NCBI GenBank assembly: GCA_943788425.1 | Contig: CALSQF010000018.1 | Coordinates: 1-51,826 of the forward strand | Direction of reading: 5' to 3' | DNA: 51,826 nt | Origin: an uncultured Planktomarina sp. | Lineage (GTDB): Bacteria > Pseudomonadota > Alphaproteobacteria > Rhodobacterales > Rhodobacteraceae | In this document: positions 19,571 to 28,544 of the stretch, piece after piece | How positions within the stretch are numbered: the first letter of the stretch is position 1 | Layout of the letters: the number at the start of each line of letters is the position of its first letter | Notes under the pieces: generated by a model | Seen by the model: the letters and a program-made list of their open reading frames with translations, nothing else | Told to the model about the DNA's origin: nothing | Database searches by the model: none | Position numbers and translations under genes: made by a program

Positions 19571-20356
19571 ATGGATATTATTGACACCCACCGCTACCCG
19601 ATTGACCAACCTGACAGTGCAGAATTTCGTGCGCTTTGCGCCCGATGTCAGGCGGATCTTGAGTCTCAAGGACTTTTCAACCTGCCAGGTTTCCTGCGCC
19701 CTGAGGCCATCGAGCGCACTCTCGATTGGGTGAAACCAGTGATCGCGCAGGATGCTTTTGTGCATAAGCGGGCCCATAACATCTATTTTAAAAAGGAAAT
19801 TCCCGGCCTCGCGCCCGATCATCCAGCCTTGCGAGAGCTCGAAACCACAAATCATACAATTTGCGCCGATCAAATTGAGGGCAGCCCCGTGACCCAACTT
19901 TATGACTGGCCTGCTTTTGCCAGATTTTTGGCCCGTGTCATGAATAAGCCGGCCCTTTACACTATGGATGACCGAATCGCCGGGGCAAATGTCATGACCT
20001 ATTACCATGGCGAAGCCTTGAACTGGCATTTTGACCGCTCAGAATTCACCACAACACTGCTTTTACAAGCGCCGAAGGCCGGCGGCGAGTTTGAGTATCT
20101 TCGAGATCTGCGCACCGCAGAGGATCCCAACTATGCCGGGGTGGCAGAGCTATTGATGGGCAAGCGCCAGACGCAGATCTGCCCGCAAGAGGCGGGAACT
20201 CTGAATGTGTTTCGCGGCGTGAACACCGCGCATCGGGTCACGCCCGTGAAGGGCGACCGGCAGAGAATCAATGCAGTTTTAACCTATTACGAAACTCCTG
20301 GCCGCCGATTTTCAGAGCAAGAGCATCTCGGATTTTATGGCAGAACATTGGGCTAA
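19571..20356 (+). CDS. 2-oxoglutarate/Fe(II) oxygenase of the BesD/HalD (ArpA-like) group
   Basis: A 261-residue non-haem iron oxygenase. The iron triad is visible as His153-x-Asp155 (NWHFDRSEF) and His221 (NTAHRVTP). Arg230 or Arg232 would bind the 2-oxoglutarate carboxylate, and AGGEFEYLRDLR follows the first His. This layout matches the BesD/HalD group, whose founders halogenate free lysine. Halogenases have Gly in place of the Asp; here Asp is present, so hydroxylation is expected. Relatives with Asp hydroxylate lysine-like free amino acids, so a cationic amino acid is a reasonable guess. It lies 91 bp upstream of the GntR-led cluster in the same orientation. The start at 19571 precedes the conserved N-terminus. 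Confidence 0.75.
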   Translation: MDIIDTHRYPIDQPDSAEFRALCARCQADLESQGLFNLPGFLRPEAIERTLDWVKPVIAQDAFVHKRAHNIYFKKEIPGLAPDHPALRELETTNHTICADQIEGSPVTQLYDWPAFARFLARVMNKPALYTMDDRIAGANVMTYYHGEALNWHFDRSEFTTTLLLQAPKAGGEFEYLRDLRTAEDPNYAGVAELLMGKRQTQICPQEAGTLNVFRGVNTAHRVTPVKGDRQRINAVLTYYETPGRRFSEQEHLGFYGRTLG

Positions 20357-20419
20357 AGGCCTATTGTGTCGCAGATAGACATCGGTGGGGTCGTCTTTGT
20401 AAATTTATTGTGTGCAACA

Positions 20420-20427
20420 TGTATACA
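20420..20427. promoter_or_regulatory. Putative GntR operator
   Basis: The palindrome TGTATACA lies 20 bases upstream of the GntR start codon, within ATGTATACAAT. FCD-type GntR regulators commonly bind NTNGTATACNAN-like sites, so this is a plausible autoregulatory operator for the 20448-26456 operon. An imperfect TTG/CAA repeat lies just upstream (about 20408-20417). Confidence 0.5.
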
Positions 20428-20447
20428 ATTCAGGGCAAGGAGCCCCG

Positions 20448-21152
20448 ATGACCCAAAACCGCAAATCCCAATGTTTGGACACCATACGTCAGCAAATCCT
20501 ATCACTCGCACTCCCCCCGGGCAGTGATTTAGACGAGACCAAACTGGGTGCCGAATTTGGCATATCGCGCACACCGCTGCGCGAGGTTTTGCAAAAACTC
20601 GCCGGGGAAGGCTACGTCGATATCACCCAAAACAAGGGGGCCAAAGTCGTCTCAATGGATATGGCGGTGATGCGCAATTTTTTTCAAACGGCGCCGCTGG
20701 TCTATGCTAACATCGCGCGGCTGGCCTGTGAAAATCGTAGCCTGCCACAGGTGAAGGCGCTCAAGACCAGCCAGCAACACTTTAAAAAAGCCACCCTCAA
20801 TCATGACCCCGCACAAGCGGCGATGCACAATCATCAATTTCACCAAATCATCGGGGATATGTCACAAAATTGCTACTTGATTCCAAGCCTCCAGCGGATG
20901 CTCATTGATCATACGCGCCTAAGCCAAACCTTCTATCGGCCTGCGTCACCAGCTGAAAGCGCGCTTGTCAGACAAGCCTGCGATCAACATGATGACATGA
21001 TCGCCGCCATTGAAGACCAGCAGGTTGAGGCTGCTGTGGCCTTAACTTTGCAGCACTGGGCCCTGTCGCAAGACCGAATGGAGCGTTTTGTGCGCCCCGA
21101 TCCATTGCCGGTTGAACTGACCATCCCGAAGGAGACAGCCCATGCAATTTGA
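20448..21152 (+). CDS. GntR family transcriptional regulator (FCD subfamily)
   Basis: A 234-residue regulator. The N-terminal winged helix contains DETKLGAEFGISRTPLREVLQKLAGEGYV, typical of GntR. The C-terminal alpha-helical FCD ligand domain contains HNHQFHQIIGDMSQN and a later VRQACDQHDDMI, which carry likely metal-binding Asp and His residues. The ATG at 20448 has AAGGAG 6 bases upstream. It heads a tight operon: its 3' end overlaps the DHDPS-family gene by 11 bp. It probably represses the operon until the substrate or an intermediate binds. Confidence 0.92.
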   Translation: MTQNRKSQCLDTIRQQILSLALPPGSDLDETKLGAEFGISRTPLREVLQKLAGEGYVDITQNKGAKVVSMDMAVMRNFFQTAPLVYANIARLACENRSLPQVKALKTSQQHFKKATLNHDPAQAAMHNHQFHQIIGDMSQNCYLIPSLQRMLIDHTRLSQTFYRPASPAESALVRQACDQHDDMIAAIEDQQVEAAVALTLQHWALSQDRMERFVRPDPLPVELTIPKETAHAI

Positions 21153-22050
21153 AGGCATCTATACCCCGGTCATTACCCCTTACCACAATGATTTTTCGTT
21201 AAATCACGATGCGTTGGAAGCCACGATCAATCGTTTGATTGAGGCTGGGGTTCATGGATTGATCGTCGCGGGCACGACCGGCGAGTATTACGCGCAAACC
21301 ACTGAAGAGCGGATTGAAATGATGTCGATTGCCCAAGAAATAATTGCCGGCAGGCGGCCGATGATTGTCGGCACCGGCGCGATCCGCACCGAGGATTCAA
21401 TTCTCTATGCCAAGGCGGCTAAAACGGCAGGTGCGGATGCACTTCTAATTGCCACCCCGCCTTATGCCTACCCGACAGGCCGCGAAATTGCCCTACACGC
21501 TTTGGCGATCGACCGCGCCGCAGATCTTCCGGCCATGCTTTACAATTATCCTGGCCGGATGTGCGTCAATATGGATGAAGAGACCCTGGACCGTCTGGGA
21601 CGCAGCTCAAATTTTTGTGCCATTAAGGAAAGCTCGGGTGATCCCAATCGGCTGCATATGCTGGCCCGCGATTATCCTCATATTGCCCTGTCTTGCGGCA
21701 TGGACGATCAGGCTTTGGAATTCTTCGCTTGGGGCGCGCGCAGCTGGGTCTGCGCCGGGTCCAATTTTGCCCCCGAAGCGCATATTGCGCTCTACCAAAC
21801 CTGCGTTGTGGAGGGAAATTTCACCAAAGGGCGCGCACTTATGTCGGCAATGCTGCCCTTGATGCGGGTGCTCGAACAAGGTGGAAAATTTGTTCAATGT
21901 ATCAAATACGGCCTGACGCTCCGCGGCATTGACGCTGGACCACCCCGCAAACCGCTGCAACCGCTCAACAAAGACGACAAACGCCAATTGGCTGAGGTCA
22001 TCACCACAATGGACATCGCCATTGCAAATATCATGGGAGAAGGCGCATGA
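21142..22050 (+). CDS. DHDPS/NAL family lyase (class I pyruvate-type aldolase)
   Basis: A 302-residue TIM-barrel protein of the dihydrodipicolinate synthase/N-acetylneuraminate lyase superfamily. It has the carboxylate-binding loop GTTGE (44-48), the catalytic Tyr136 in YNYPGR, and the Schiff-base Lys162 in IKESSGD. A true DapA is unlikely, since the gene sits in a catabolic operon. Superfamily members act on 2-oxo acids by aldol cleavage, dehydration or deamination, such as 4-hydroxy-2-oxo acid aldolases and hydroxyproline-pathway deaminase. Here a retro-aldolase giving pyruvate plus an aldehyde for the next enzyme is proposed. It overlaps GntR by 11 bp and the ALDH gene by 4 bp. Confidence 0.88.
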   Translation: MQFEGIYTPVITPYHNDFSLNHDALEATINRLIEAGVHGLIVAGTTGEYYAQTTEERIEMMSIAQEIIAGRRPMIVGTGAIRTEDSILYAKAAKTAGADALLIATPPYAYPTGREIALHALAIDRAADLPAMLYNYPGRMCVNMDEETLDRLGRSSNFCAIKESSGDPNRLHMLARDYPHIALSCGMDDQALEFFAWGARSWVCAGSNFAPEAHIALYQTCVVEGNFTKGRALMSAMLPLMRVLEQGGKFVQCIKYGLTLRGIDAGPPRKPLQPLNKDDKRQLAEVITTMDIAIANIMGEGA

Positions 22051-23537
22051 GCGACTTACTAACAACCGCGGAGTACAAAGCGCTGGCCGCAGATCTCGAC
22101 CTCCCGCGCACCGCCTTTATTGACGGCAAGTACCGCGCTGGTCATGGCGCTGTTTTTGCGACTTTGAACCCCGCCACCGGGGTGCCGCTTGCCGAAATTT
22201 CTGGCTGTAATGCGCAAGATGTAGATCTTGCAGTGTCCAAAGCCCGTGAAGCCTTCGATCAAGGCCATTGGGCCAAACGCGCACCATCGGACCGCAAAGA
22301 TGTATTGATCCGCCTGTGCAAGTTGATCACACGCAACCGCCGGGAATTGGCCGTGATGGAAAGCCTCGACAGCGGCAAGCCGATCTCAGATTGTGAGACC
22401 ATCGATATTCCCGAGACCATCGAAACCTTGAAATGGCATGCGGAGTTGATTGACAAAATTTATGACCAAACGGCCCCGGCGCAGGAAGATGCTATTGCCA
22501 TGATTTTACGCGAACCCATTGGGGTCGTCGCCGCTGTTTTACCGTGGAACTTTCCATTGTTGATGATGGCTTGGAAAATCGGACCCGCTTTGGCTGCCGG
22601 CAATTCTGTCATCGTAAAGCCCGCTGAGCAAACCAGCCTCACAGCTCTGCGCTTGGCCGAATTGGCAACACAGGCCGGCCTGCCCCGCGGGGTCTTGCAA
22701 GTCCTGCCCGGTGATGGGCCGAGTGTGGGCGCGCCGCTCGGCACGCATATGGATGTGGATATGGTCAGCTTCACAGGCTCAACCGAGACGGGGCGGCATT
22801 TCCTGCGCTATGCCGCTGACAGCAATTTAAAGAAGGTTGTCCTGGAATGCGGCGGCAAAAACCCCTGCGTGGTTTTTGATGATGCGGAAAATCTCGATGC
22901 TGTGGCCCGTCATGTGGTCAATGCTGCCTTTTGGAATATGGGCGAGAATTGTTCCGCCGCCTCTCGCCTGATTGTCCATCAAGCCGTAAAAGAGCCCCTA
23001 ATGGAGCGGATCTTAGCGCGGTTGCGAGATTGGAAAACGGGCGATCCGCTCAACCCCGCCCATCACCTGGGTGCACTCATTGATGCGGAGCATTGCGCCA
23101 ACGTGGCCAGCTATCTCACAGGCACCGCTTTGGCCGGTGGCACCGCCGACGGGCCCTATGTGCAGCCAACGATTTTCGAGGTCAGCGCAAAAGATGCCAG
23201 AGCCGTTGATGAAATTTTTGGACCAATTCTGAGCGTGCTCACCGTCGCCAGCAATGATGAGGCCATTGCGCTGGCCAATGACACCCGCTACGGCTTGGCC
23301 GCTTCTGTATTCACCGCCAATACCCGCAACGCCATTCGCGCAGCCCGCGACATCAAGGCCGGCACCGTGACCGTCAATACCTATGGCGAAGGGTCCATTG
23401 CGACACCCTTCGGTGGCTATAAACAATCGGGCTTCGGCGGGCGCGACAATGGCATTCATGCCCATGACCAATTCACCGAAACCAAAACCATTTGGATTGA
23501 CCTCACCGACCCGCGCGATGGCGACAATGTGGACTGA
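22047..23537 (+). CDS. Aldehyde dehydrogenase, PuuC/betaine-aldehyde-dehydrogenase-like
   Basis: A 496-residue NAD(P)-dependent aldehyde dehydrogenase. The catalytic set is complete: Asn168 (PWNFPLL), Glu267 (LECGGKNP) and Cys302 (GENCSAASR). KPAEQTSLTALRLAEL and FTGSTETGRHFL form the cofactor site. Overall it resembles PuuC and BADH enzymes acting on omega-amino or trimethylamino aldehydes. The segment between AHHLGALID and YVQPTIF is about ten residues shorter than usual. The start overlaps the DHDPS-family gene as ATGA, so the aldehyde produced there is the likely substrate. The MttB gene follows after 35 bp with AAGGAGG. Confidence 0.92.
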   Translation: MSDLLTTAEYKALAADLDLPRTAFIDGKYRAGHGAVFATLNPATGVPLAEISGCNAQDVDLAVSKAREAFDQGHWAKRAPSDRKDVLIRLCKLITRNRRELAVMESLDSGKPISDCETIDIPETIETLKWHAELIDKIYDQTAPAQEDAIAMILREPIGVVAAVLPWNFPLLMMAWKIGPALAAGNSVIVKPAEQTSLTALRLAELATQAGLPRGVLQVLPGDGPSVGAPLGTHMDVDMVSFTGSTETGRHFLRYAADSNLKKVVLECGGKNPCVVFDDAENLDAVARHVVNAAFWNMGENCSAASRLIVHQAVKEPLMERILARLRDWKTGDPLNPAHHLGALIDAEHCANVASYLTGTALAGGTADGPYVQPTIFEVSAKDARAVDEIFGPILSVLTVASNDEAIALANDTRYGLAASVFTANTRNAIRAARDIKAGTVTVNTYGEGSIATPFGGYKQSGFGGRDNGIHAHDQFTETKTIWIDLTDPRDGDNVD

Positions 23538-23572
23538 CGGGCCGCAAGTTTTGCGCCTAAGGAGGAGCACTT

Positions 23573-25123
23573 ATGGCTGATGCAGTTGGAACGACGCGGC
23601 GCGGCCGCGGTGCGCGTAAAACCATAAGACAAACCCGCGATGTTGCAATGTTGCCCGCGCTGAAACGCCGCCTGCCCTTAACCGAGCCCATGGATCAAGA
23701 GCAGATCGAGAAGATTGATGCAGCCTCCATGAGCATCCTTGAGGATGTCGGCGTGGTATTTCGCGACCCCATTGCCATTGCAGATTGGCGTGCCGCGGGG
23801 GCGGATATTCGCGATGGAGACCGGGTGCATTTAGACCGCGGTCTTGTGCGTGAATTGATCTGCTCTATTCCCTCAAGCTTCACCTATCACGCGCGCAACC
23901 CGGCCAATAACCTGCCCTTCGGTCACGATCATTCTATCTTTGTACCAATGACCGGCGCGCCCTATCTGCGGGATCTCGAGGATGTCCGGCGCAATCCAAC
24001 TTTGGAAGACTTGGCCAATTTTCACAAATTATCGCATATGCTGCCCGCAATCCACTCTTCGGCTCACCACATTGTAGAGCCTTATGATCACCCAATCAGC
24101 CAAAGGCATTTGCGCATCACCTATTCGTCGATGAAACATTCCGACAAGACCTTCATGGGCATGACCACAAGTCCCAAAAATGCCGAAGATGTCATGGAGA
24201 TGTGTGCGCTGCTCTTTGGTGCGGATTTTATGCAAAGTCACCCCGTCGTCACAGGCAACTGCAATGGTAACAGCCCGCTGGTTTGGGATGAAACGATGCT
24301 AGGAGCGCTGCGAGCCTTTGCCAAATACAACCAACCCATCTTGTGCAGCCCCTTCGTTCTCGGCGGCGCCAATACCCCCGCTTCGGTCGCCCCAACCGTG
24401 GCGCAGCTCAATGCCGAAGCCCTGAGCTGTCTGGCCTATTCGCAGGTTGTGCGCAAAGGCACCCCCGCAATCTACGGTCATTATTTGGCCACTGTCAGCA
24501 TGCGGTCCGGCGCACCGATGGCCGGCACGCCTGAAATCAGCTTGATGAATTTCATGATTGGCCAAATGGCTCGCTATTATGACGTGCCCTGGCGGACTTC
24601 GAATACTTTGGGCGGAGCAAAAATTCTTGACGCACAGGCCGGATATGAGAGCGCCATGACGTTGAATGCAGTGCTCATGGCGGGGGCGAATTATATCTGG
24701 CACAGCGCTGGATGGAATGAGGCCGGCATGCATTGCTCGATGGCGAAATTCGTGGTGGATGCGGAGCTTTGCGCTATGGGGTATCGCATGGCCGAGGGCA
24801 TACGCTGGGATGATTTCGAAGGGGCCATGCAGGCGGTGCGCGACATTGGACCCGGTGGGCATTACCTGGGCCATTCACACACGCTTGAAAACTTCCAACG
24901 CGCGTTCTTCATGCCCGAGATGTTTGACAATAATTCGATTGAGCAATGGCAGGCAGATGGCGCGCTGGATACAAATACCCGCGGGCTGATACGCGCGCGT
25001 CAAATGCTCGACGACTATGAGGAACCAAAATTGGACCCCGGCATTGATGAAGCCCTGCGCGACTACATCGCGCGACGCGAACGCGAGATCCCAGCTGCTG
25101 ACGCGCTGAACCAAGAGTATTGA
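23573..25123 (+). CDS. MttB-family methyltransferase homologue without pyrrolysine
   Basis: A 516-residue member of the trimethylamine methyltransferase (MttB/COG5598) family. It is read through without any in-frame TAG, so it lacks pyrrolysine. Recognisable stretches are MSILEDVGVVF, VTGNCNGNSPLVWDETM, QMARYYDVPWRTSNTLGGAK and DIGPGGHYLGHSHTLENF. Non-Pyl homologues such as glycine betaine methyltransferase MtgB demethylate quaternary amines onto a corrinoid protein. No corrinoid protein, methyltetrahydrofolate transferase or reductive activator is encoded nearby, so the acceptor is unknown. AAGGAGG lies 6 bases upstream. The FAD oxidoreductase gene follows after 2 bp. Confidence 0.9.
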   Translation: MADAVGTTRRGRGARKTIRQTRDVAMLPALKRRLPLTEPMDQEQIEKIDAASMSILEDVGVVFRDPIAIADWRAAGADIRDGDRVHLDRGLVRELICSIPSSFTYHARNPANNLPFGHDHSIFVPMTGAPYLRDLEDVRRNPTLEDLANFHKLSHMLPAIHSSAHHIVEPYDHPISQRHLRITYSSMKHSDKTFMGMTTSPKNAEDVMEMCALLFGADFMQSHPVVTGNCNGNSPLVWDETMLGALRAFAKYNQPILCSPFVLGGANTPASVAPTVAQLNAEALSCLAYSQVVRKGTPAIYGHYLATVSMRSGAPMAGTPEISLMNFMIGQMARYYDVPWRTSNTLGGAKILDAQAGYESAMTLNAVLMAGANYIWHSAGWNEAGMHCSMAKFVVDAELCAMGYRMAEGIRWDDFEGAMQAVRDIGPGGHYLGHSHTLENFQRAFFMPEMFDNNSIEQWQADGALDTNTRGLIRARQMLDDYEEPKLDPGIDEALRDYIARREREIPAADALNQEY

Positions 25124-25125
25124 AG

Positions 25126-26456
25126 ATGAAAGTCTCGCGCCTGCCTATCGATCCCGGTCCGGCCGCTTGGGCAGATCTGCTGCCGCCGCCGCACCGGCCC
25201 AGAAGCTAGAAGGCGCGCAAACCGCAGATTGGTTGGTGATTGGCGGCGGCTTTGCGGGCCTCTCGGCACTGGCACGTCTCAAGCAGCTGCACCCGGCCGA
25301 TAAAATTATTCTGCTTGAGGCCAGCCGGATTGCTGACGGACCTGCCGGGCGCAATTCAGGGTTTATGATTGATCTGCCCCATGATCTGGCCTCAGAGGAT
25401 TATGGGGGGGGCGTCAGCGAAGACCAGCACCAGATCGCAGCCAATCGCGCCGCCATTGCCTTCGCTCGCAAGATGGCCGAGGTATTTGCACTGCCCCGCG
25501 AGGCCTTTAACCCCTGCGGCAAGTTCAATGCAGCCGCCAGCGCAAAAGGCCATCAGCACAATCAAGACTATGCCCACCATTTGACCCGAATGGGCGAATC
25601 TTGGGAGATGTATGATGCGGCGCAAATGGCGGAATTGACTGGAACCAACTATTATCAATCTGGCCTCTACACCCCCGGTACGGTCATGCTGCAACCGGCC
25701 ATGTATATTCGCGGCATTGCCCGCGGCTTGGCATCCCATAATGCCAAGATCTTCGAAAATTCGCCCGTAACCGCGCTCGATCACAATGGGGATTGGTCAG
25801 CCACCACCCCATCGGGCAAAGTGACAGCGCCGCGGGTCATTCTGGCCGTCAACGGCCATGCCAATTCCTTCGGACTTTACCCGCAACAGCTTCTTCATGT
25901 ATTCACCTACGCCAGCATGACCCGCGCCTTGACCGCCCAGGAGGTAAAATCCTTGGGCGGGGCACGCAATTGGGGCGCCACACCTGCCGATCCCTTAGGG
26001 ACGACCGTGCGGCGCATATCTGGGATTGGGGGCGATCGGATCATCATCCGAAATCGCGCCACTTTTGATCCATCCATGCAGGTCTCACAGCGGCGCATCC
26101 GCGCGGTGTCACGCAGTCATGATGCAAGTTTTTCTGCCCGTTTCCCCGTGCTGCGCCATGTCTCCATGCAATATCGTTGGGGCGGGCGCCTGTGCCTTTC
26201 GCGCAATAATGTCGCCGCTTTTGGCGAGGTCATGCCCGGGCTCTATTCGGCCTGCTGCCAAAACGGATTGGGCACGGCCAAGGGGACATTGCATGGCATG
26301 CTGGCCGCGGAGCTGGCCAGTGGGCATGACAGCGCGCTTTTGCAACAGGTCCAAAAACAATCCCCTCCGCGCCGACTGCCGCCGCCGCCTCTGGCCTGGC
26401 TTGGCGCCAATGCGCTGATGAAATGGGGCGAGTGGAAGGCCGGCGTGGAACTTTAA
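25126..26456 (+). pseudogene. DAO-family FAD-dependent oxidoreductase, frameshifted near the N-terminus
   Basis: A protein of about 443 residues, broken by one missing base. The start at 25126, 2 bp after the MttB stop, gives MKVSRLPIDPGPAAWADLLP, then hits a stop in that frame at 25207-25209. The rest (APAQKLEGAQTADW onward) continues in another frame. The break is in the CCG repeat at about 25183-25195. The FAD loop IGGGFAGLSALARL is followed by EASRIADGPAGRNSGF, as in PuuB-like amine oxidases. It probably oxidises a primary or methylated amine or amino acid. Either a slip in the CCG repeat or a sequence error explains the break. A TTG at 25167 could start a shorter product that keeps the whole FAD domain. 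Confidence 0.82.
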
Positions 26457-26484
26457 GCCAGCACAGCACCGATCTGACGACACT

Positions 26485-27240
26485 CTATCTCGGCGGCAGC
26501 CCAACCAAAGCGCGGGAGGCCGGTTCACGCAGGTGAAAATCTTCCCCCGCATAGGCCGCGCCACCCGGCCCACAAAGATAGGCAATCGCCTGCGCCACAT
26601 CCGAGGCTGGAATATGATCGGACAGTTGCAATTGGCTGACCGGATTAACCCCACTGGCTTTGATCTCAACCTGCATCTGCGTTGCCACTGTGCCGGGGCT
26701 CAACCCCAAACAGCGAAGGCCTTGATCACCATATTCAGCATGCCCAGAACGGGTCAATTGCAGCACGGCGGCCTTTGAGGCGCAGTAATGGCTCCAGCCT
26801 TCCAGCACCCCATAAGCGGCACCGGACGAAATATTGAGGATGGTCCCGCCCCCCTGGGCTGTCATGACCGGCAGCGCCGCCTTCATCATGTAAAAGACAC
26901 CTTTGACATTCACATCTATCACCCGGTCCCAATCGGCGGGTTCGAAATCTACCAACCGATGTACAGGCAAGAGCATGCCGGCATTGTTAATAACGATATC
27001 AAGACGACCAAATTGCGCCACGGTTTGATCAACCGCTGCCTGCACCTGCTGGAAATCGGCAACATCGCAGGCAATCGCCAGCGCTTTTGGCCCAATTTTC
27101 TCAGCCAATTTCACCAATTCGCCCTCAGAACGCGCGGTCAATGCCACCTGTGCCCCAAGGGATGCAAAATGTTCAGCGGTCGCGGCTCCAATACCGCGGC
27201 TTGCGCCAGTTATCAAAACTGTTTGCCCTGAAAAATCCAT
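26485..27240 (-). CDS. SDR family oxidoreductase
   Basis: A 251-residue classical short-chain dehydrogenase/reductase. It has the cofactor motif TGASRGIGAA, NNAG, the catalytic Ser of ISSGAAYG, and YCASKAA with the Tyr and Lys of the active site. The start at 27240 puts MDFSGQTVLITG at the N-terminus, as usual, with AAGG upstream; a longer frame adds 20 residues without support. It is convergent with the FAD oxidoreductase gene and divergent from the MFS gene. The substrate is unknown; it may belong to the same catabolic cluster, but it is not in the operon. Confidence 0.92.
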   Translation of the reverse strand: MDFSGQTVLITGASRGIGAATAEHFASLGAQVALTARSEGELVKLAEKIGPKALAIACDVADFQQVQAAVDQTVAQFGRLDIVINNAGMLLPVHRLVDFEPADWDRVIDVNVKGVFYMMKAALPVMTAQGGGTILNISSGAAYGVLEGWSHYCASKAAVLQLTRSGHAEYGDQGLRCLGLSPGTVATQMQVEIKASGVNPVSQLQLSDHIPASDVAQAIAYLCGPGGAAYAGEDFHLREPASRALVGLPPR

Positions 27241-27365
27241 TCTTGTCACGCCTTTCGAATTGCCTAACCAAAGGCTAGCTCTCACGGCCAATTGGCACAA
27301 GGCATCACTTCTGGCTTTACCCAGGCCGCAAGCCGTGGCACCACAGCCTCAGATCGGAGATTGCC

Positions 27366-28544
27366 ATGCGCGCGACATTGATAATTTTGACTTTTGCCTA
27401 TGTCTTGTCTCAGTTTTATCGGGCATTTCTGGCTGTTTTGGCAGCCCCCTTACAGGCAGATATTGGCGCCACAGCCGCGCAGCTCTCGGCGGCCTCTGGC
27501 TATTGGTTTTTAACCTTCGCGCTGATGCAAATACCCGTCGGTTGGGCCTTGGACACTTTGGGCCCGCGGCGTACCAATGCCGCGCTTCTCGCTCTCGGAG
27601 CCGGTGGGGGCGCTTTGGTTTTCGCAGCCGCGACCGAACCTTGGCATATCTCGGCCGCGATGACGATGATCGGTATCGGCTGCTCCTCGGTTTTAATGGC
27701 CGCATATTATGTGGTCGCCCGCAGTTTTCCTGCGGCAGCCTTCGCCACCATGGCCGCCTTCATCTTGGGGATCGGATCGGTTGGCAATATTGGCGCAGCC
27801 TTTCCACTCACACTGCTCGTTGAGATCTTGGGCTGGCGCATGTCTATCTTCATCATCGCGCTCATCACTCTTGTGATTGCCGCCCTGTGCTACGTGATCG
27901 TCAAGGATCCGCCAAAGGTTGAGACCGATGAAAAAGGCAGCTTGCTGGATCTGCTCCGCATGCGGGCCATCTGGTTCATCTTGCCTCTTGTTCTGGTCAG
28001 CTATGCCCCCTCTGCGGGCTTGCGCGGCCTTTGGGTGGGCCCCTATTTCACCGATGTCTTCGGCGCCTCCACAGCCCAGGTTGGCACAGTGACCACGCTG
28101 ATGGCTCTGGCGATGATTGCCGGCACCTTTTGCTATGGTCCGCTTGACCGGCTATTGGGGACGCGCAAATGGGTGATTTTCACAGGCAATTTGATTGGCG
28201 GCTTGCTGTGTCTTGTCCTTTATCTGCATGGTGACTCTGACTTTTGGAGCACCGCCGCCATCATGGCCGGAATTGGATTTTTCGGTGCGTCATTCCCGAT
28301 TTTGGTTGCCCATGGGCGCAGTTTTTTTCCAGATCACCTGATGGGGCGCGGCGTGACTTTGATCAACCTCTTTGGAATCGGAGGCGTTGGCATCATGCAA
28401 AATGTCACCGCGCGGGTGTTTGATGCCAAGATAACACAGACCCAAGCGCCGATTGTCTCATATAACGCCGTCATTTTGGTATTTTGTGTGACATTACTGC
28501 TGGGATTGGTGATTTATATCTTCTCACAGGACAGAACCGACTAG
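27366..28544 (+). CDS. MFS transporter
   Basis: A 392-residue major facilitator superfamily permease with twelve predicted helices. Features are the N-terminal FYRAFLAVLAAPLQADIGAT, the helix 2-3 loop GWALDTLGPRRTN, which replaces the usual G-x3-D-R-x-G-R, and a central cytosolic loop around 183-195. It is divergent from the SDR with 125 bp between the start codons, which would hold both promoters. Its place at the end of the GntR cluster suggests uptake of the cluster's substrate or export of a product, but there is no direct evidence. Confidence 0.88.
   Translation: MRATLIILTFAYVLSQFYRAFLAVLAAPLQADIGATAAQLSAASGYWFLTFALMQIPVGWALDTLGPRRTNAALLALGAGGGALVFAAATEPWHISAAMTMIGIGCSSVLMAAYYVVARSFPAAAFATMAAFILGIGSVGNIGAAFPLTLLVEILGWRMSIFIIALITLVIAALCYVIVKDPPKVETDEKGSLLDLLRMRAIWFILPLVLVSYAPSAGLRGLWVGPYFTDVFGASTAQVGTVTTLMALAMIAGTFCYGPLDRLLGTRKWVIFTGNLIGGLLCLVLYLHGDSDFWSTAAIMAGIGFFGASFPILVAHGRSFFPDHLMGRGVTLINLFGIGGVGIMQNVTARVFDAKITQTQAPIVSYNAVILVFCVTLLLGLVIYIFSQDRTD

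Follow-up and report, generated by a model that had tools for sequence, protein, structure and literature searches.

A candidate vitamin B12-dependent operon for the breakdown of a cyclic amino-acid betaine in an uncultured Planktomarina

Results

A five-gene operon with a proposed betaine substrate

A contig of 51,826 nucleotides from an uncultured Planktomarina sp. (called the window below; contig 18 of a 2.54 Mb genome that is 93% complete) carries the gene set GntR-DHDPS-ALDH-MttB-DAO (20412-26456), which we judge, at a probability of roughly 0.6, to be an operon that breaks down a cyclic amino-acid betaine, 4-hydroxyproline betaine being the most likely candidate, with no part played by the neighboring 2-oxoglutarate (2OG)/Fe(II) oxygenase gene (OX). 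The best reading of these genes is a B12-dependent variant of the hydroxyproline-betaine pathway, in which the methyltransferase homolog MttB would replace a Rieske demethylase. Among the matches listed, the closest named relative was Planktomarina sp. MOX_bin72, with 99% DHDPS identity. An earlier note, made from the DNA alone, had instead placed OX at the head of a pathway for trimethyl-lysine or a similar amino acid.

The operon genes occur together across the family

Relatives of the locus were sought through DHDPS and the best 80 of at least 589 were compared, using identity thresholds chosen within this analysis to mark each gene (at least 40% for GntR and at least 50% for the transporter gene ProV). 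ALDH was marked in 77 of these loci, DAO in 69, MttB in 68, GntR in 67 and OX in 4; many of the loci stop at contig ends, so that absences there are upper bounds. In a sample of 295 genomes of the family (the DHDPS and MttB samples were taken as the same 295, as their identifiers agree), DHDPS was found in 79, the MttB ortholog in 76 and both in 72 (Fisher's test p = 3.8e-55). As MttB also shares a stretch with DHDPS in those 68 loci, the gene set is not a chance grouping.

Short loci were obtained for 30 of the 79 DHDPS genomes, and wider regions were taken for 40 of the other 49, nine being left out. Six of the 40 had the arrangement of the window and 34 a second one, with a DHDPS 61-69% identical to that of the window and the usual order GlxA-GntR-DHDPS-ALDH-DAO; in 22/34 of these MttB (72-79% identical to that of the window) lay in the same stretch, mostly in the opposite orientation. 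Plasmid pB of Cereibacter sphaeroides 2.4.1 holds the full set together, as MttB-HpbD-SDR-SDR, DAO-ALDH-DHDPS-GntR and ProVWX-GlxA; the RefSeq proteins are WP_011331276 (MttB), WP_011331277 (HpbD-type), WP_011331282 (DHDPS), WP_011331281 (ALDH) and WP_011331280 (DAO). Titles of the records, among the DHDPS matches listed, named Rhodobacteraceae, other Alphaproteobacteria and metagenome-assembled genomes called Granulosicoccaceae and Cocleimonas.

The MttB homolog groups with HpbD-linked relatives

MttB of the window (516 aa) matched PF06253 at 708.7 bits over positions 2-500 of 500. It has no internal stop or in-frame amber codon and is therefore a non-Pyl homolog, as the earlier note had proposed. 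Phylogenetic analysis placed it in one clade (support 99/100) with MttBs linked to the epimerase HpbD and with one Yoonia MttB, whilst the six other MttBs of its own genome fell apart from that clade; the stretches around those six gave no match to the DHDPS, ALDH or DAO of the operon. One row of the tree (L182) belongs to a genome that shares an identical HpbD with C. sphaeroides, so it is no independent witness. The eight PF06253 matches in the genome of the window correspond to seven genes, one of them apparently in two pieces.

Elsewhere in that genome (G000:C5) an MtgC-like B12-binding protein adjoins an MtgE-like homocysteine methyltransferase, together with a DUF1638 protein, making the B12-binding protein a candidate corrinoid partner of MttB. 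Passages of PMC12478193 give proteins of these kinds a part in methyl transfer in the Ruegeria pomeroyi model. At another locus (L245:277-2877) genes for a homocysteine methyltransferase, a B12-binding protein and a DUF1638 protein follow one another, an arrangement resembling the split methionine synthase of roseobacters.

HpbD and betaine transporters accompany the operon genes in some relatives

In the PDB, the MLE-family protein of loci such as L183 was closest to 4e8g/4izg/4j1o (579 bits), followed by 2pmq/4h2h (537 bits), the latter of which we take to be Pelagibaca HpbD. Relatives of the MLE at about 67% identity bear the NCBI label 'hpbD: 4-hydroxyproline betaine 2-epimerase'. HpbD was marked in 4 of the best 80 of at least 589 DHDPS loci and in 6 of the 40 wider ones. 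Seventeen of the 295 genomes carry it, 16 of them with DHDPS (expected 4.6, p = 2.8e-9) and 16 with the MttB ortholog (p = 1.4e-9), and the distance between MttB and HpbD is 0.8 kb or less in 9/17 and no more than about 5 kb in 11/17. The hpbD of Pelagibaca bermudensis lay outside the loci compared, where the best match to a 2pmq fragment was at 66%.

Judged by its sequence, the genome of the window also encodes an HpbD-type epimerase as expected of the hpb (hydroxyproline-betaine) pathway. It lies on a separate contig from the operon (G000:C4:434887-435987), is 62% identical to hpbD of Paracoccus pantotrophus and has 4e8g and 2pmq as its best PDB matches. It adjoins a zinc alcohol dehydrogenase, and an HpbA homolog (47% identical) about 5.5 kb off is cut by the end of the contig. 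In our genus sample of 20 Planktomarina genomes, used for both HpbD and OX, HpbD was found in three (two at 70%, one at 49%), all with DHDPS. No Rieske protein was found among the eight proteins of the window that were scanned, and the P. pantotrophus Rieske gene had no match of at least 35% in locus L227, the rest of the genome not being searched. Near its GntR-DHDPS-ALDH-DAO set, Leisingera caerulea carries both a Rieske gene and an MLE.

Betaine transporters (ProVWX/OpuABC or BCCT) lie beside orthologous modules that bear MttB in C. sphaeroides pB, Sinorhizobium meliloti AK57 pSymA and Yoonia, and beside modules without a visible MttB in Rhizobium leguminosarum, Agrobacterium vitis and Paracoccus denitrificans; ProV was marked in 1 of the best 80 of at least 589 loci and in 7 of the 40. 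In Yoonia the operon with MttB is followed by a BCCT transporter, and AK57 pSymA holds ProXWV, GntR, DHDPS, ALDH, DAO, MttB and an HpbD-like MLE; several of these genes are broken there. In P. denitrificans, DHDPS-ALDH-DAO and an OpuABC-type transporter lie across the origin of the record, with no MttB seen.

A probable role of DHDPS, DAO and ALDH in 4-hydroxyproline ring degradation

Catabolism of trans-4-hydroxy-L-proline proceeds through 4-hydroxyproline epimerase (4HypE), D-hydroxyproline oxidase, pyrroline-4-hydroxy-2-carboxylate deaminase and alpha-ketoglutarate semialdehyde (KGSA) dehydrogenase. In the tree, DHDPS of the window shared a clade (98/98) with the DHDPS of R. leguminosarum and A. 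vitis clusters that hold 4HypE and betaine transporters, and this clade was sister (86/92) to DHDPS of Caballeronia, Shinella and S. meliloti ml28 from clusters with proline-racemase-family genes. R. leguminosarum pR132501 carries in one run GntR-DHDPS-ALDH-DAO, a glycine-betaine ABC transporter and 4HypE (575 bits against a cut-off of 376), adjoined by formaldehyde-detoxification genes; no MttB was seen in the run. The core of this arrangement is repeated on A. vitis pAvCG78a, with no MttB annotated.

The retro-aldol cleavage to pyruvate suggested in the earlier note found no support here and was dropped as the leading reaction. Orthologous DHDPS genes lie in 4HypE clusters, where the known DHDPS-family step is that of a deaminase; a deaminase/dehydratase is the favored, though tentative, assignment for this enzyme, and the note had named a deaminase or dehydratase activity (there for sugar acids) as one that would count against its pathway. 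The idea of a sugar-acid aldolase was also rejected because betaine transporters and hydroxyproline genes adjoin the DHDPS orthologs.

For DAO, a structural model was built from the intact copy of locus L084 (36 sequences; predicted local distance difference test, pLDDT, 92). It matched glycine oxidase, L-proline dehydrogenase, sarcosine oxidase and DMGDH, and also D-arginine dehydrogenase and L-amino acid deaminase, and so does not distinguish L- from D-substrates. ALDH scored 504 bits with the PuuC model, under its cut-off of 850.

A proposed pathway

From the gene content, conservation, co-occurrence and phylogeny observed we infer the substrate, the reactions and their order, as follows. 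MttB would transfer one N-methyl group from the betaine to the MtgC-like corrinoid protein, from which it would pass to homocysteine or tetrahydrofolate. The DAO flavoprotein would then act on N-methyl-hydroxyproline, or on hydroxyproline after a second demethylation, giving pyrroline- (or N-methyl-pyrrolinium-) 4-hydroxy-2-carboxylate. The DHDPS-family enzyme would open this ring with loss of water and amine to give KGSA, which ALDH would oxidize to 2-oxoglutarate. HpbD, where present, may first epimerize the betaine at C2; GntR would regulate the operon, and the oxygenase would play no part.

The earlier interpretation is partly supported: the evidence favors a betaine-type substrate, demethylation by a non-Pyl MttB homolog and a GntR-controlled catabolic operon, whilst its first step, trimethyl-lysine as its substrate and its cleavage reaction are not supported. 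Hydroxyproline betaine, named there as a compound for growth tests, is now the best-supported substrate. We put at about even odds the fuller proposal of an aerobic B12-dependent route in which the MttB ortholog demethylates a hydroxyproline-type betaine, the methyl group goes to a split methionine synthase and the ring to DAO-DHDPS-ALDH, replacing the O2-dependent Rieske demethylase.

Other betaines as possible substrates

Several observations weigh against 4-hydroxyproline betaine or against parts of the scheme. The nearest 4HypE clusters have no MttB and so support the ring steps, not the substrate of MttB, whose link rests on HpbD, the betaine transporters and the shared ring module. DHDPS of the window is 25% identical (its C. 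sphaeroides ortholog 28%) to the DHDPS-family gene adjacent to 4HypE on pSymB of S. meliloti 1021, and the proline-racemase family (PF05544) had no match in the genome of the window at its 93% completeness. PuuC/BADH models outscore KGSA-dehydrogenase models for the window ALDH, as they do for its counterpart in the R. leguminosarum 4HypE cluster. No betaine transporter lies beside the window operon, an MFS permease standing there instead, and the scheme gives no place to the SDR pair and the zinc alcohol dehydrogenase that many relatives carry (see below). In the window DAO is open only from TTG 25167, and ATG 25126 lies in another frame. A relative whose DAO is 98.6% identical has the corresponding ATG in frame, and its gene spans 445 codons when counted from a TTG that precedes this ATG by two codons. 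The window is one base short in a C run (within 25126-25190, near 25180-25190), which may be a sequencing error or else a real frameshift.

HpbD was found in only 16/79 DHDPS genomes and the searched 4HypE type in only 2/79 (one also with HpbD), leaving 62/79 with neither (lists compared by hand). In those genomes either DAO takes L-series substrates, a different epimerase does the work, or the compound degraded is another one; the stereoisomer, or the substrate as such, may not be the same there. This speaks for an alternative, which we rate as clearly short of likely, that a different quaternary amino acid is broken down by the operon (proline betaine, 3-hydroxyproline betaine or a betaine not yet known), with 4-hydroxyproline betaine as one substrate or as that of the HpbD minority. 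A trans-3-hydroxyproline dehydratase above its NCBIfam cut-off in one module locus (L175), and a second MLE in 2/40 loci that scored best, under the cut-off, with the cis-3-hydroxyproline dehydratase model, are consistent with this alternative. To our knowledge, the breakdown of plain proline betaine needs no DHDPS/ALDH/DAO trio, and the R. leguminosarum and A. vitis orthologs adjoin an epimerase for 4-hydroxyproline, both of which argue the other way. On the side of the alternative, MtpB of Eubacterium limosum, as cited in passages of PMC8604678, demethylates proline betaine.

The oxygenase is probably a neighbor only

In favor of the earlier note, OX, at 65% identity or more, was present in 9/10 Planktomarina genomes with DHDPS and in 4/10 without (one-sided p about 0.03, calculated by hand). 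OX matched PF23169 (HalD) at 41.3 bits against a cut-off of 26, and Halogenase B weakly. Halogenases of this kind have HxG or HxA in place of HxD. OX lacks the halogenase motif and has HFD at that site (residues 150-152, counted from 19580), with the distal H present, so that a hydroxylase would be expected and not a halogenase. An AlphaFold model of OX (five sequences) reached a pLDDT of 38 and was not used.

The order in congeners is leuB-OX-[GntR-DHDPS-ALDH-MttB-DAO]-SDR-MFS, with small variations. OX was found in 4 of the best 80 of at least 589 DHDPS loci, all from Planktomarina (L084, L101, L104 and L109), in none of the 40 further family loci, and not at Planktomarina locus L085, where the operon stands in the same place beside leuB. 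Four congener loci without the operon (L037, L038, L039 and L047) all retain OX and the MFS gene, and three of the four have the SDR gene beside OX; in L047 OX is split in two pieces. Alignment of L038 with the window picks up again at 26219, within DAO, where a remnant of the 3' end of that gene is left (L038:6598-6840), so the operon was formerly there and was deleted while OX stayed. As the operon recurs without OX, and a congener that lost the operon kept OX, the oxygenase is probably not part of it. The earlier note had asked for a comparison of gene neighborhoods, and in that comparison OX is not conserved beside the operon in relatives, an outcome that the note itself had named as refuting its pathway; its proposal that OX catalyzes the first step is not upheld.

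OX stands next to an M24 peptidase in two further genera, at loci where the operon is not present (L045:6606-10305 and L046:8675-10752), one of which also holds an aromatic-amino-acid-lyase-family protein. This M24 is 65-66% identical to an M24 in the betaine island of R. leguminosarum.

It is improbable, in our estimate, that in Planktomarina alone OX supplies the operon with its substrate, for instance a 4-hydroxy product made from proline betaine or proline, which the operon would then degrade. The position of OX directly upstream on the same strand, its tendency to co-occur with the operon within the genus and the M24 similarity would fit such a role, but OX was retained where the operon was lost, is missing from L085 and does not accompany the operon elsewhere. 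Most improbable of all, and rejected, is the earlier route, which starts with 4-hydroxylation of trimethyl-lysine or a similar cationic amino acid by OX and goes on through deamination by DAO, cleavage by DHDPS into pyruvate plus an aldehyde, oxidation of that aldehyde by ALDH and demethylation of the short betaine by MttB, since the HalD and Halogenase B matches and HxD motif of OX, the PuuC/BADH-like ALDH and the co-occurrence within the genus are set against 76/80 and 40/40 DHDPS loci without OX (L085 included), four congeners with OX and no operon (one with a DAO stub left by deletion), and operon relatives that accompany hydroxyproline and hydroxyproline-betaine genes.

Gene layout and further neighbors

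The region 19571-28544 is a mixture of the oxygenase, the operon, and an SDR and MFS pair (Table 1). Profile matches confirmed the open reading frames and families that the earlier note had named (HalD, GntR/FCD, DHDPS, Aldedh, MTTB, DAO, SDR and MFS). Its account of tight spacing is exact for the overlaps of 11 bp between GntR and DHDPS (21142-21152) and 4 bp between DHDPS and ALDH (22047-22050) and for the 35 bp gap between ALDH and MttB; its 2-bp gap, however, leads to ATG 25126, out of the DAO frame, so that the observation as a whole was partly confirmed.

Table 1. Genes of the operon and its neighbors in the window, with proposed roles.
Feature	Position	Strand	Basis or remark
2OG/Fe(II) oxygenase (OX), HalD/BesD-like, HxD motif	19571..20356	+	PF23169 41.3 bits; neighbor, judged outside operon
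GntR/FCD-family regulator, operon gene 1	20412..21152	+	Pfam GntR and FCD
DHDPS-family enzyme; proposed pyrroline-4-hydroxy-2-carboxylate-type deaminase/dehydratase	21142..22050	+	PF00701 203 bits
PuuC/KauB-type ALDH; proposed KGSA oxidation	22047..23537	+	PF00171 516 bits
MttB-superfamily corrinoid-dependent methyltransferase, no pyrrolysine codon; proposed hydroxyproline-betaine demethylase	23573..25123	+	PF06253 709 bits
FAD-dependent DAO-family oxidoreductase; proposed N-methyl- or free-hydroxyproline oxidase	25167..26456	+	PF01266 129 bits
SDR	26485..27237	-	neighbor, judged outside operon
MFS permease	27366..28544	+	neighbor; role in uptake possible

Other genes recur in the relatives. 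Many of them carry a conserved SDR pair (e.g., L133:16285-17744), placed either between MttB and DAO or next to HpbD (23 and 22 of the 80 loci; 11 and 11 of the 40), which could interconvert a hydroxyl center. A zinc alcohol dehydrogenase lies beside or near HpbD in L227 (9752-11991), L174, L183, L277 and L278, and some such loci hold a second MLE whose best model, again under its cut-off, is cis-3-hydroxyproline dehydratase. Seven relatives (L089, L106, L112, L136, L137, L153 and L158) have an open reading frame of 252-253 aa between ALDH and MttB.

Discussion

The substrate proposed here occurs in the sea, as the compatible solutes measured in marine microbial communities of the Antarctic include betonicine and proline betaine (a passage of PMC10579395) and hydroxyproline betaine was found in radiolarian holobionts (passages of PMC11965087). 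Marine roseobacters of this kind have up to seven pfam06253 open reading frames, for which parts of PMC12478193 suggest diverse, unnamed methylated substrates. A widespread MttB ortholog group, held by about a quarter of the family genomes (76/295), now gains a specific, testable substrate class, with a complete model locus available on C. sphaeroides 2.4.1 pB. If our reading is true, one orphan MttB homolog of marine roseobacters would be identified, and betaines of this class would need vitamin B12 for their breakdown, which would be linked to the synthesis of methionine.

A literature search gave no paper joining MttB with hydroxyproline betaine, within a reach that did not extend to the founding hpb papers. 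Among the matches listed, no title concerned this operon in searches for homarine operons or for roseobacter DHDPS with MttB, and a search on HpbD gave no match containing the word.

Several known systems share parts of the proposed pathway. The trans-4-hydroxy-L-proline route has the same DAO, DHDPS and ALDH families, and orthologous DHDPS genes lie in 4HypE clusters; it differs in that the genome of the window has no proline-racemase match, MttB is added and the DHDPS is only 25% identical to that of S. meliloti 1021. MtpB of E. limosum (cited in PMC8604678) is likewise a non-Pyl MttB homolog acting on a proline-type betaine, but its host is an anaerobic acetogen growing on the methyl group, and the passages of that source mention no ring-degradation operon. 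The aerobic glycine-betaine demethylase MtgBCDE of R. pomeroyi, as described in parts of PMC12478193, also uses an MttB-superfamily methyltransferase and has its counterpart here in the corrinoid protein-homocysteine methyltransferase pair; unlike in that system, the partners of MttB in the window would be ring-degrading enzymes, and the substrate would be a cyclic betaine.

The nearest comparison is the hydroxyproline-betaine/proline-betaine (hpb) pathway of P. bermudensis and P. denitrificans, reportedly the work of Zhao et al. in 2013 and Kumar et al. in 2014. It is known from these two organisms as cited in passages of PMC4113996 and PMC5144071, and the former describes the DAAO-DHDPS-ALDH trio as the known 4-hydroxyproline route, found also in hydroxyproline-betaine growers. 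Shared with that pathway are the HpbD-type epimerase, in the genome of the window and beside some relatives of the operon, the betaine ABC transporters beside relatives, and the DAAO, DHDPS and ALDH family enzymes for the ring. The hpb locus of P. pantotrophus has a Rieske oxygenase and HpbA annotated, with no MttB listed, whereas N-demethylation is here assigned to a corrinoid-dependent MttB homolog. On our best reading, what is new is a hydroxyproline-betaine pathway that would use a B12-dependent demethylase rather than a Rieske one.

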